This document shows, piece by piece, positions 6,525 to 11,301 of a stretch of DNA of 44,706 nucleotides (within the stretch, counting starts at the first letter, position 1; every line of letters starts with the position of its first letter). Made by a program: the position numbers and the translations under genes. The notes below the pieces were generated by a model, which saw only the letters and a program-made list of their open reading frames with translations, was not told the DNA's origin and ran no database searches. Source of the DNA: Candidatus Heimdallarchaeota archaeon (GTDB lineage: Archaea; Asgardarchaeota; Heimdallarchaeia; Heimdallarchaeales; Heimdallarchaeaceae). The DNA is taken from positions 1-44,706 of the forward strand of contig JAGLRO010000052.1 in NCBI GenBank assembly GCA_023136245.1. The letters are read 5' to 3'.

Positions 6525-7415
6525 ATGAAAAAAAATGAAGCATTTCCAGGAAATATAAAAAGATATTTGGTTCTTTTTCTTGTTTGTAGCTTTTTTTTCT
6601 ATTTAATTATTCCTTCTACATCTCAAGCAAATCCTGCGATCATACCATCAGATGATTTTGAAGTTGGAGGTTTGATACCTGGAAATTTTTCACACAACCT
6701 AGAGTTGGTTTATGCATTTGTTCTCTTGGATATTGATGCAACTGAATACAACAAGTACTTTGATGTTGATTTCGATGGTACTTATCAAATATACAATCCC
6801 AACGAAACAGTTTCTTATTATATTGCAGCTCCTTTTACTGGAGCTTATGAAGGATTGGAAGAAACACTTGTAGTACTAGTAAATGATGAAGAAATTGACT
6901 GTGAATTAGTTTATCTAAATGAAACTGATTTAATCGAATGGAATGAATATTTCTGGGGTTATTATTTCACAAGAATTTTCGCAATTTGTGAAATCACATT
7001 TGAAGCAGAAACTCAAACATCCATTAGTTTCAATTGGGAAGCTCGAATGGAAAAAGAACATGATTTAGCACTGATTTATTATGATGTAGGTACTGGTAGA
7101 TCATGGAATGGAGGGGTAACAGAAAGGGTTCAATTCAAGATTCATGGTAAACAACCCTCAGCTTATACTGGAGCTCCTAAGAGTCAAAATGAAACACTTT
7201 GTGATATGTCTAGATTTTGGGGTGGAAAAATTTATACTTGGCATTGGGAGAATCAGATAATTCAAGATAATGTTGTAGGTGTTAATTATGATTATGAAAT
7301 TCTTAAAAATACTACCTTAGCAATCGTTCTACCATCAACCTTTGGTTCTTTTCTTTTTATAATTTTAGTTTCAGTTTCTTACATCTACAAAAGGAAAAAG
7401 GTGATTTTAAAATGA
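6525..7415 (+). CDS. Secreted, C-terminally anchored protein of unknown function
   Basis: A signal peptide (Lys-rich start, hydrophobic LVLFLVCSFFFYLIIP near residues 15-31) is followed by about 230 residues rich in aromatic and acidic amino acids. A C-terminal membrane helix (about 266-288) and the basic tail YKRKK follow, so most of the protein should lie outside the cell. Two Cys pairs in the outer part could form disulfides. I do not recognise the fold. Its stop overlaps the start of the next gene by four bases (ATGA), so it is translationally coupled to a solute-binding protein and may act with it. Confidence 0.8.
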   Translation: MKKNEAFPGNIKRYLVLFLVCSFFFYLIIPSTSQANPAIIPSDDFEVGGLIPGNFSHNLELVYAFVLLDIDATEYNKYFDVDFDGTYQIYNPNETVSYYIAAPFTGAYEGLEETLVVLVNDEEIDCELVYLNETDLIEWNEYFWGYYFTRIFAICEITFEAETQTSISFNWEARMEKEHDLALIYYDVGTGRSWNGGVTERVQFKIHGKQPSAYTGAPKSQNETLCDMSRFWGGKIYTWHWENQIIQDNVVGVNYDYEILKNTTLAIVLPSTFGSFLFIILVSVSYIYKRKKVILK

Positions 7416-9217
7416 AAAAAAGTAGGTTGATTATGTTTTTAGTAATACTCTCCATGCTTCTTCCTTCTGTAGTAGATGCTCGAGAACATGACATTCAACG
7501 TTTCTTTTCAGTAAATCTTCTCTCTCCAAACACCGATCCTATTTTAAATCAATGGTCGAAAATAATTGAGGAGCAGCTTCCAAAAATTGGAATAGGTGTT
7601 GTTTTTCATGAATCTACTAGTTGGGAAAATATTGCTTTAAGAACGTGGTCTTATCCTTTAATTGATTATGACTACATTCCAATATATTCAGAAGGAGGTT
7701 TTGATATTCTCTTTCTAACAGAATCATGGGACATTGATTGGTATCCATATAAATTTTATATTCCTTGTTTTACATCCTCATTTCATCAGTACATTAATCC
7801 TTATTATGATTCAGTATTATCTGATTATGAAACAAGTTTAGATCCTTTAGAAAGAACAGAATATGCTCAAGAACTACAGAGAATTCTTTATGAGGATTTA
7901 CCAGCAATTCAGATATTCTATCCAAGACAAATTTTTGGATTCAATAAAAATGTATCAGGAGTTAATCCAACTCTTCTTAATTTTGCATATCCTCGTCCAG
8001 AATATTGGAAGGAATCAGGAGATAAACACATAATCTATGCTCTTTTCAAAAATCTTTCAGATTATAATAATTTCAAGATTAAATTTAACGATCAATTTGG
8101 CTTTGATACTAATTGGGCTCAATGTGTTTATGGATCTCTTTTCAAACGTAACCAAGATTCTTTTGATTGGGAAACTTCGATTGCAAAAAATATAACTATC
8201 TCTGATGTTATTAATAGGAATTTTAACATAACTATTGACTTAGATGTTAATGCTAAATTTAGTGGTGGTGAATCAGTACTATCTGAAGATATAAAATACT
8301 CATATAATCTTTTTATGACACCTGCTGTCAATTCACCTAATTATGAGTTCCTTTGTTCATGGTTTAAAAACAATGATTCAATAGTTGTAGTTGATGAAGA
8401 TACACTTAGATTTGAGTTTGACAAATTCTATAATTTCATATACAGTATCCTCTCTTTTGGAATAATAGATAAGAGTGTTGTAGAACCATTAGTCACATTA
8501 CATGGTTATGAGATTTTTAACCAAGAACCCTTTTCTACAAATGTAAGTGATGCTCTTGTTACATCTTGTGGTCCTTTTAAACTATCAAAATATGATGTCA
8601 ATAATGGTGTTGTTGAGCTTATTCCTAATGAATTCTGGTCTGGACATTCACTTAGTCTAGAAAATATCACATTTGTTAGTATTCAAGATAAAGAAATAGC
8701 TCTTTCAGAATTAGCTTCAGGTAGTATTGATATTGTAGATGCTGATTATGATTATAATTACAGCCATTTCGAAAATTTAAATGCAATAAATGCTGTTTAT
8801 AGTAAGTCTTTGACTGCTGGTGAATTAGCTTTCAACATGAAACACCCAATTATGGGGACTGGAGAATTAACTCTTGAAGGAACTGCAGAATATGCGAAGA
8901 AAATAAGGCAGGCAATTAATTATGCTATACCTAGGCAAATTATAATTGATGAGATTTTGGATGGAATGGCGACTCCTGGAGTTACTTTTTGCCCTGAAGG
9001 GTGTATTGGTTATGATGATTCACTAATGCCTTACGAGTATAATTTAGACAAAGCCATCGAATTGATAGGAGTGATGTATTGGTGGAACACTCCAACTACA
9101 TTGATAAACAAGATAGAAGGAATAACTATCATATTCTCTATGATGAGTATTGGATTCATTTCTATCTTCTTGAATTACTGGAAAAGAAAAACCATTCCAT
9201 CACGAAAATCTTATTAA
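7412..9217 (+). CDS. Family-5 solute-binding protein (OppA/DppA-like) with swapped lobe order
   Basis: Signal peptide (residues 1-24), then about 150 residues that match the usual C-terminal lobe of SBP_bac_5 proteins: NTDP..NQWSKIIEEQLPKIGIGV, FDILFLTESWDIDWYP, DPLERTEYAQELQRILYEDLPAI. Only after this comes what is normally the N-terminal lobe: VYGSLFKR, AKFSGGESVLSEDIKYSYNLFM, SCGPFKL, LASGSIDIVDA, IRQAINYAIPRQIIIDEIL. A C-terminal membrane helix (about 569-592) and basic tail would anchor it outside the cell. Known family members bind peptides, sugars or nickel for ABC importers. No permease or ATPase gene is in the window, so it is an orphan receptor here. It overlaps the previous gene by four bases. 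The family call is firm; the permutation rests on my reading of the domain order. Confidence 0.85.
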   Translation: MKKSRLIMFLVILSMLLPSVVDAREHDIQRFFSVNLLSPNTDPILNQWSKIIEEQLPKIGIGVVFHESTSWENIALRTWSYPLIDYDYIPIYSEGGFDILFLTESWDIDWYPYKFYIPCFTSSFHQYINPYYDSVLSDYETSLDPLERTEYAQELQRILYEDLPAIQIFYPRQIFGFNKNVSGVNPTLLNFAYPRPEYWKESGDKHIIYALFKNLSDYNNFKIKFNDQFGFDTNWAQCVYGSLFKRNQDSFDWETSIAKNITISDVINRNFNITIDLDVNAKFSGGESVLSEDIKYSYNLFMTPAVNSPNYEFLCSWFKNNDSIVVVDEDTLRFEFDKFYNFIYSILSFGIIDKSVVEPLVTLHGYEIFNQEPFSTNVSDALVTSCGPFKLSKYDVNNGVVELIPNEFWSGHSLSLENITFVSIQDKEIALSELASGSIDIVDADYDYNYSHFENLNAINAVYSKSLTAGELAFNMKHPIMGTGELTLEGTAEYAKKIRQAINYAIPRQIIIDEILDGMATPGVTFCPEGCIGYDDSLMPYEYNLDKAIELIGVMYWWNTPTTLINKIEGITIIFSMMSIGFISIFLNYWKRKTIPSRKSY

Positions 9218-9340
9218 AGAGTTTTTCATCATTCACGATGAGATTTTTATTATTGAAATTAGAATGATATTTTAGATGTCTTTAAATGTTAATCCTAACC
9301 ATTTTCAATATTTATAATAATAATTAAAATGCTCCCAAAA

Positions 9341-9348
9341 CCTTTATA
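9341..9348 (+). promoter_or_regulatory. TATA box upstream of the second solute-binding protein
   Basis: CTTTATAG predicts transcription from about 9370, giving a leader of roughly 115 nt before the ATG at 9484. It would also cover the small ORF at 9399. Confidence 0.4.
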
Positions 9349-9398
9349 GAACACTTTTCCTATTGTTTTAGTTGATAAGAAATAAGGAAAATTTCATA

Positions 9399-9491
9399 TT
9401 GAACAAAAATGCTGCAATATTCATATCAATATTATTGCTTCTATTTACTCCTTATATCAAAATAAAACAATTGGAATTGGATAATGAATAA
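9399..9491 (+). CDS. Possible 30-aa hydrophobic leader ORF
   Basis: A TTG-started frame encodes MNKNAAIFISILLLLF... ending at TAA 9489-9491, overlapping the next gene's start by eight bases. It looks like a bare signal peptide. It may be the remains of a duplicate of the 6525-7415 gene, which occupies the same place before the first binding protein, or chance. Support is weak: the ribosome site is poor and the ORF is short. Confidence 0.25.
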   Translation: MNKNAAIFISILLLLFTPYIKIKQLELDNE

Positions 9492-11301
9492 AATGAGGAA
9501 AAAAATACTTGTTGTTCTATTTCTATGTTTCTTTTTGTTTTTACCTGGTATTATCAGTTCCCAAGATGTAGAAATTCCAATAGCATTTAAGATTAATCTT
9601 CTCTCTCTAAATACTGATCCAGCTCGAAACCAATGGTCTCTCTTAATACAAGAGCAGCTTCCAAAAATTGGGATAGGTGTAACATTTCATGAATCTACCT
9701 CTTTGAAAAATATAGCTTCTCGTACTTGGTTTTATCCTGGAGGTGAATGTGGTATTATTCCACCATACTCTGAAGGTGGTTTCGATATATTGCTTATTGG
9801 TTGGTCATGGGACCTTGATTGGGATCCTACTGATTTTTATTCTACTTCTTCTATATATCCTTCTGGAAATAATTTCTATCAGTATAACAATCCAAACTTT
9901 GATGAGATGCTTAATAAATATCTAAAAACAATTAATTCAACACTCAGAACTCAATATTCTCACGAGCTTCAAGCTATGTTGTATGACGATTTGCCAGCTA
10001 TAAGTATTACTTACCCAAGAGAACTTTATGGATTTAAAGAACATCTTTATGGTATTGATGAACTTCTCTTTGCAACATCAAATCTTCGTCCAGAAAACTG
10101 GGGTGACTCAGAAGATCATATTATTGTTTATGCAATTCCTGAAAAATTAAAAGAATATAACATCTTTCTACAAGAGTCTTTCTATGATGCTCAATGGATG
10201 TCTGCTATATATGGTTCTTTGTTTAAAAGAGGACAGGATCACCATGATTGGGAACCCGCAATTGCAAATACCACAACTTTTAGTTCAGATGGACGAAATA
10301 TAACTGTAACTATAGATTCAAACGCAAAATTTAGTGATGGCTATCCAGTTCTTGCAGAAGACATAAAATATTCTTATGAACTCTATATGTCACCAAAGTT
10401 GTGTTCTTCTCCATTTTCAAGTAAATCTAAATATCAAATTTTAACTAGATGGTTTGCATCTAATGATTCAATTGAGGTTATTGACACACATTCTCTCAAC
10501 TTTAATTTGACTGATGATTATAGTTTTGCACTCGGTCTCCTATCTTTTGGTATAATAGATAAAAGTACTGTTGAACCAGCAATCTCAACATATGGTTATG
10601 ATATATTTGGTGAGGTTCCATTAACTGGTAATGTTCAAAATACCTTGGTTAAATCTTGTGGTCCATTCAAACTAGATTTCTATTATCCTAATTCAAGTTC
10701 GGTAAGACTCAAACCTAACCTATATTGGAATAATCTTACTGTTTCAAAAGGAAAACAGCCATTATTAGATGAATTGAACATTTCTTATATCTCTAGTGTT
10801 GATTCTGCATTAGCAGGGCTTTTTTATGGAAATATCGATATATTGGATTCTCATTATGATTTAGTTCAACTTGATGTGGGTTTTGGGGATGGTCCAATTG
10901 TAGGTAAAATAGTAAAGGTTCCTAAACATGAAGAAATAGCAATAAACATGAAACACCCGATTATAGGGACTGGTGAGTTAACACCAGTTGGTACTACAGA
11001 ATCAGCTAAAAACATTCGAAAAGCAATTAGTCATGCAATACCCCGAAATTATATCGTTGATGAAATTCAGCGGTTCGGTGATCCTGGAATATCACCTATA
11101 CCTGATTCATGTATAGGTTTTGATAAATCTTTGAAACCTTATGCCTATGATCTTGATCTTGCTATAGATTATATGGAAAAAACAGGTGTATACTCGTGGC
11201 ATACATGGCCTCCTTATGAAACAGGGATAACTTCTCTTATTTTACTCTCATTGACAAGTTTAGTTTCTGTTAGTTGTTTAAGAAGGATAAGACTAAGATA
11301 A
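9484..11301 (+). CDS. Second family-5 solute-binding protein with the same swapped lobes
   Basis: This 605-aa product is a tandem paralogue of the 7412-9217 protein and shows the same order: signal peptide (1-26), C-lobe-type segment (NTDPARNQWSLLIQEQLPKIG, FDILLIGWSWDLDWDPTDF, RTQYSHELQAMLYDDLPA), then the N-lobe-type part (IYGSLFKRGQD.HDWEPA, AKFSDGYPVLAEDIKYSYELYM, SCGPFKL, NIRKAISHAIPRNYIVDEI), and a C-terminal membrane helix near 583-599. The C-lobe segment here is closer to the family consensus (GWSWDLDWDPTDF, NPNFDEML) than in the first copy, so this may be the better-conserved receptor. Short patches of DNA are nearly identical between the copies, for example 7571-7597 and 9652-9678. 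No transporter subunits are nearby. Confidence 0.87.
   Translation: MNKMRKKILVVLFLCFFLFLPGIISSQDVEIPIAFKINLLSLNTDPARNQWSLLIQEQLPKIGIGVTFHESTSLKNIASRTWFYPGGECGIIPPYSEGGFDILLIGWSWDLDWDPTDFYSTSSIYPSGNNFYQYNNPNFDEMLNKYLKTINSTLRTQYSHELQAMLYDDLPAISITYPRELYGFKEHLYGIDELLFATSNLRPENWGDSEDHIIVYAIPEKLKEYNIFLQESFYDAQWMSAIYGSLFKRGQDHHDWEPAIANTTTFSSDGRNITVTIDSNAKFSDGYPVLAEDIKYSYELYMSPKLCSSPFSSKSKYQILTRWFASNDSIEVIDTHSLNFNLTDDYSFALGLLSFGIIDKSTVEPAISTYGYDIFGEVPLTGNVQNTLVKSCGPFKLDFYYPNSSSVRLKPNLYWNNLTVSKGKQPLLDELNISYISSVDSALAGLFYGNIDILDSHYDLVQLDVGFGDGPIVGKIVKVPKHEEIAINMKHPIIGTGELTPVGTTESAKNIRKAISHAIPRNYIVDEIQRFGDPGISPIPDSCIGFDKSLKPYAYDLDLAIDYMEKTGVYSWHTWPPYETGITSLILLSLTSLVSVSCLRRIRLR

Follow-up and report, generated by a model that had tools for sequence, protein, structure and literature searches.

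Tandem solute-binding proteins of family 5, probably circularly permuted, in Candidatus Heimdallarchaeota

The two genes and the order of their segments

The window, that is, the whole stretch of DNA that was analysed (44,706 nt), contains two tandem genes on the forward strand, ORF1 (7412..9217, 601 aa) and ORF2 (9484..11301, 605 aa). Transporter genes are absent from the window. Both products are matched by the SBP_bac_5 family (PF00496) and by a profile built from three unpermuted Asgard homologues (the canonical profile). Each protein carries a signal-peptide-like helix at the N-terminus and a hydrophobic helix at the C-terminus.

ORF1 starts with a signal-peptide-like sequence (MKKSRLIMFLVILSMLLPSVVDA, 7412..7480; sequence and a hydrophobicity peak at residue 6). 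The subsequent segment (7502..7978) corresponds to the C-terminal part of an ordinary family-5 protein. It covers positions 1-163 of the 164 in our model for this part (C model, 212 bits). It is followed by the counterpart of the ordinary N-terminal part (8030..9067), which covers positions 1-341 of the 347 in the corresponding N model (418 bits) and positions 18-273 of PF00496. The protein ends with a membrane anchor (9113..9169; hydrophobicity peak at residues 568-586) and a basic tail.

ORF2 is built in the same way. A signal-peptide-like start (9484..9564; sequence, hydrophobicity and a helix at residues 2-22 of the predicted structure) precedes the usually C-terminal segment (9586..10071; C model 2-163 of 164), which includes GGFDILLIGWSWDLDWDPTDF. 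The two old termini are connected by a new linker of ~17 residues (10072..10122, the NLRPENWGDSEDH region). The usually N-terminal segment (10123..11187; N model 1-345 of 347) ends with YAYDLDLAIDYMEKTG, and the C-terminal membrane anchor (11224..11280) is seen as a helix at residues 582-604 of the model and as a hydrophobic stretch at residues ~581-599. A C-terminal sorting signal was considered and rejected (NCBIfam VPXXXP-CTERM matches one relative only, with E=0.11).

The ORF upstream of ORF1 (6525..7415, forward strand, 296 aa) codes for a protein with a signal peptide and a C-terminal transmembrane segment, for which no known family was matched. Its stop codon overlaps the start of ORF1 by 4 bases, and a homologue is encoded directly upstream of a permuted binding protein at another locus (L074, 7117-8001, E=1e-41). 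It is probably a partner of ORF1.

PF00496 scores 137.5 and 140.8 bits for the two ORFs, above the Pfam cut-off of 32.4 bits, and matches two stretches in each of them. In ORF2, HMM positions 288-359 (at 9586-9846, E=3.2e-4) are upstream of positions 3-277 (at 10252-11187, E=1.1e-35). The canonical profile is matched at 429-598 and then at 60-414 by ORF2 (171 and 190 bits), and at 431-592 and then at 60-409 by ORF1 (127 and 170 bits). Thus, the C-part precedes the N-part in both proteins, which is not the ordinary segment order of SBP_bac_5. Both segments are homologous to one and the same normal protein, each region is covered once, and the order is rotated. When SBP frames were classified with the N and C models, 139 had the order C-then-N versus 24 with N-then-C.

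The earlier note on this DNA had described the usual tail segment at the front, the usual start segment behind it and a membrane anchor at the end, and had considered a circular permutation. The motifs that it quoted were found in the order that it gave, the anchor is present in both proteins, and the Pfam coordinates run rotated rather than in the normal order. Taking together the rotated profile coordinates, the single confident structure model (see below) and the existence of relatives in both orders, we conclude that ORF1 and ORF2 very probably (about 0.9) derive by natural circular permutation from a solute-binding protein of family 5 (cluster C, Dpp/Opp type).

For ORF2, the structure was predicted by AlphaFold from an alignment of 48 permuted relatives. 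A single model was obtained, with a pLDDT of 91.3 and a pTM of 0.85 over both parts; confidence drops around the signal peptide and in the loop that precedes the anchor. Foldseek, which is unable to follow a rotated chain, aligned ~240-415 columns of this model, and each of the 50 listed matches is the structure of a family-5 binding protein. On the strength of the model confidence and the sequence, the two parts are predicted, with high confidence, to close into one two-lobed binding-protein fold; a structure prediction was among the checks suggested in the earlier note.

The C-lobe is domain III of OppA/DppA, at approximately residues 271-479 (OppA numbering). When the profile was compared to PDB sequences, residues 218-570 of ORF2 aligned with residues 10-341 of Escherichia coli DppA. 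The binding-protein part of ORF2 ends at about residue 341 of DppA and starts just past that residue, so the cut falls ~70 residues inside the C-lobe. Both new ends are within the C-lobe, between helix YAYDLDLAIDYMEKTG and strand IAFKINLLSLNT. The first segment (residues ~35-196) represents the remainder of the C-lobe and the last return to the N-lobe, and the old ends are bridged by the ~17-residue linker. Here, two details of the earlier description have to be corrected. “Swapped lobes” is inexact, as the chain is rotated with its new ends inside one lobe; a lobe swap is rejected by the PDB alignments. Nor do the proteins end where the C-lobe would usually begin, because the C-lobe already includes helix AISHAIPRNYIVDEI and the segment that follows it. 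The chain would accordingly lead from the secretion signal into a strand that an ordinary mature protein reaches after ~345 residues. It would then complete the C-lobe up to the old C-terminus, cross the short new linker to the old N-terminus, pass through the N-lobe, return to the C-lobe and finish in the membrane anchor.

Transporter genes and the proposed uptake function

Families f2, f3 and f4, which belong to the same taxonomic order as the window's family, encode close homologues with the ordinary segment order, at six loci (L021, L027, L028, L031, L032 and L034) and others. They match both halves of ORF1 and ORF2 over the full length, in rotated order. At one of these loci (L031, genome G026), the unpermuted gene is in an operon with DppB, DppC, DppD and DppF. 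A short SBP_5 remnant (L032:22-849), in which the N-part jumps at ~149 to the C-part of the profile, adjoins a full-length copy.

The source genome codes for one DppBCDF set (contig C79), which has no adjoining binding-protein gene. The same is the case for the set of genome G022 (2.046-2.050 Mb). In the window's family, the permuted genes are scattered and often in tandem, as are the window pair, a group at 770-776 kb in G022 and genes on contig C12 of G001. The source genome has five full permuted proteins of the window's group. A second, divergent group is represented by a permuted protein on contig C51 and one on C198 that is cut by the contig end. Genes of permuted binding proteins adjoin Dpp permease or ATPase genes at nine loci, and another nine loci from Alphaproteobacteria and Haloarchaea have Dpp-type genes next to a permuted one.

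Given the Dpp linkage of the relatives and the orphan importer genes, we consider it likely that the window proteins function in Dpp-linked uptake. They would be Venus-flytrap receptors, tethered at the cell surface, which pass their solute on to DppBCDF, the importer whose genes lie at another place in the genome. The captured solute would probably be a peptide. In ORF2, D110 aligns with the Asp by which OppA clamps peptides, and D112, two residues further on, is the better conserved of the two (37 of 48 relatives). With the clamp-aligned Asp conserved in only 15 of 48 relatives, and the GW that precedes this position lacking in ORF1, peptides are a tentative ligand class.

Alternatively, the permuted proteins might be tethered surface receptors or sensors that no longer serve an importer. 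The genes of the Heimdall family are indeed numerous, scattered and mostly away from permease genes, and an additional transmembrane protein is encoded upstream of ORF1. However, other permuted relatives are part of complete Dpp operons, and the source genome has kept its orphan DppBCDF set, so that a loss of importer function is unlikely and Dpp-linked uptake is the reading that we prefer.

Three further observations concern transporter and binding-protein genes. (i) A generic ABC ATPase gene recurs at 12 loci, where it lies ~0.7-1.8 kb upstream of genes that code for permuted binding proteins of one group. (ii) DppB has an N-terminal extension of ~240 residues before the permease domains in the source genome (contig C79, L152:6396-8150, minus strand) and at L150:7675-9393; this extension is possibly an extracellular docking part. 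(iii) Contig C215 of the source genome (L007, 997-2109, minus strand) codes for a secreted protein of 370 aa, which has an isolated SBP_5 C-lobe in native order and a FIMAH domain (PF22888) but is devoid of an N-lobe.

Distribution, other cut points and origin

Every one of the 23 genomes of the window's family has the cut seen in the window, and so do nine from family f6. The carriers include the one-contig genome G022 (Ca. Heimdallarchaeum endolithica), so the arrangement is not an assembly artefact. The same cut is also found in more distant Asgard families (six genomes). Outside of Asgard archaea, carriers were found by tblastn of the junction against plasmids: Nitratireductor, Salipiger, Neorhizobium, Ketogulonicigenium, Microvirga and Roseomonas, and the haloarchaea Halalkalicoccus, Halobaculum and Natrinema. 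Maritalea was also matched, judged by the junction match and sequence only. One junction search retrieved 59 plasmid records with at least 80% of the query covered in one place. At annotated plasmid loci, the permuted gene is beside two permease genes and one or two ATPase genes. Thus, an Asgard-only trait is rejected, the same cut being present on bacterial and haloarchaeal plasmids. The bacterial permuted proteins that were examined at full length lack a C-terminal anchor.

Cut positions refer to a single profile of 573 positions, made from family-5 proteins in ordinary order; on this profile, the cut of the window is at ~372. About 20 proteins from the Asgard families f28, f11, f5 and f7 are cut at ~235. 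Their model, computed from 16 sequences, has a pLDDT of 80.8 and a pTM of 0.73 and matches family-5 structures; one representative (L223) adjoins DppB and DppC genes. Two proteins of the 235 type are fused to long additional extracellular regions (L220, a frame of 2026 aa; L224, 1349 aa). Further cuts, each represented by one protein only, are at ~303 (L216/L233), ~428 (L198) and ~155, the latter from Subdoligranulum (Clostridia). The Subdoligranulum variabile protein (OY725879.1, L244:3909-5696) is lipoprotein-like and matches the SBP_5 profile at 152-521 and then at 40-158. There is good reason to regard family 5 as a natural collection of permutants from Asgard archaea, Haloarchaea, Alphaproteobacteria and Clostridia. 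These have at least five cuts (~372, 235, 303, 428 and 155), several of which would be independent and the commonest perhaps made more than once, and some of the permutants would still serve Dpp-type importers. If this is true, evolution has repeatedly taken the route of chain rotation in family 5, and a large unlabelled subclass is hidden under annotations as “ABC transporter substrate-binding protein”.

Phylogenetic trees were computed on sequences returned to the ordinary order; their deep branches are long. Proteins with the cut of the window do not form one clade: at least 3-4 label changes are forced, and 0 bootstrap trees have a single clade. Constraining all Asgard A-side permuted rows together was rejected (AU test, p=0.0002), while a constraint of the window's family (f1), f6 and L163 was not (p=0.18). 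A single origin of this cut in all carriers is thus unsupported. The unpermuted group from f2-f4 nests among permuted proteins, beside the permuted L163 of f3. Judged by the tree, f2-f4 may have reverted to the ordinary order from a permuted ancestor. However, their N-part and C-part are still joined by the usual linker, D..nDG.yE in form, a feature that argues for the ordinary order being ancestral.

A permuted protein could arise if a normal gene was duplicated in tandem or fused and the outer pieces were subsequently lost. Wherever the cut falls, this would leave a signal peptide and an anchor at the ends. The earlier note had suggested looking for longer relatives in Asgard genomes. L235 (2286-7274, minus strand, contig C32 of G086), from a distant genome, codes for a protein of 1663 aa with two complete SBP_5 units in tandem (N-C-N-C), followed by further extracellular sequence; it is the only multi-copy form found. 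The postulated C-N-C form was not encountered among the classified SBP frames sampled. The tandem gene arrays and the L235 fusion make duplication, fusion and loss of outer parts a natural route, and we lean towards it as the origin of the permuted proteins.

The window proteins themselves might also be truncated remnants of a longer C-N-C protein and not complete permuted folds. Their ends match what such a form would leave behind, and the source genome does have an isolated C-lobe protein in native order (that on contig C215). This is very unlikely, however, as there are zero C-N-C proteins among the classified frames, the two parts cover the family-5 chain exactly once with nothing duplicated or missing, the model is confident throughout, and the arrangement is conserved in more than 100 homologues. 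A C-N-C form may, nevertheless, have been a historical intermediate. That two unrelated domains were joined by chance, or that assembly or annotation is at fault, has a negligible probability, because the two full-length, high-scoring stretches are complementary, both belong to family 5 and recur in more than 100 homologues. The carriers amount to tens of genomes, one of them a single contig, and annotated plasmids are also among them.

Comparison with known binding proteins

The permuted family-5 proteins resemble DppA, OppA and GbpA (SBP_bac_5, cluster C) in both sequence segments, in the predicted fold, in secretion and, where relatives are encoded beside Dpp genes, in the link to a DppBCDF-type transporter. 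They differ in that their segments are rotated, whereas the PDB sequences inspected are in ordinary order. The permuted profile matches 114 PDB sequences; the best 60 of these 114 align, in their best stretch, the N-part to the chain start, and none of these 60 spans the permuted order. The comparison of the 235-type profile with PDB sequences gave the same result. A search of open-access papers yielded no description of permuted binding proteins that belong to family 5, are of the Dpp or Opp type or come from Asgard archaea. The permuted binding protein that is known belongs to another class (see below), and the family-5 case is undescribed in the open-access literature searched.

Nature has here permuted a binding protein that has to dock with a membrane importer, which is a test of the chain connections on which closing, docking and tethering depend. 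Ready pairs for comparison are at hand, as there are close homologues in both orders, several cuts and genes in Dpp operons. For genome annotation, it is relevant that domain databases score either order alike. In biosensor design, engineers cut such proteins artificially, and nature may already offer working cuts. The case also bears on the evolutionary rearrangement of binding-protein folds.

In Pseudomonas aeruginosa, one DppBCDF importer is fed by several binding proteins, DppA1-A5 (PMC4206461). The situation in the source genome is similar, with several binding proteins per importer set. Sharing of the importer was shown by mutants in P. aeruginosa, whereas it is presumed for the window proteins, and no permutation was reported there (PMC4206461).

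The known case of circular permutation is TpMglB-2 (Tp0684), a ligand-binding protein of Type I (cluster B) from Treponema pallidum, which was described in 2016 (PMC4990184). Its authors suggest tethering as a possible reason for the permutation (PMC4990184). In family 5, soluble bacterial members that lack an anchor share the permutation, so tethering cannot be the whole reason. ORF1 and ORF2 do not belong to Type Ic (cluster Bc, MglB-like), PF00496 being the sole family found and the listed PDB matches being from cluster C. TpMglB-2 and the window proteins have in common that they are naturally permuted, membrane-tethered binding proteins of the ABC transporter type. TpMglB-2, however, is of the Type I sugar-binding class, has its cut in the N-lobe and has an extra hinge (PMC4990184). 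The permutations of TpMglB-2 and of family 5 are unrelated events.
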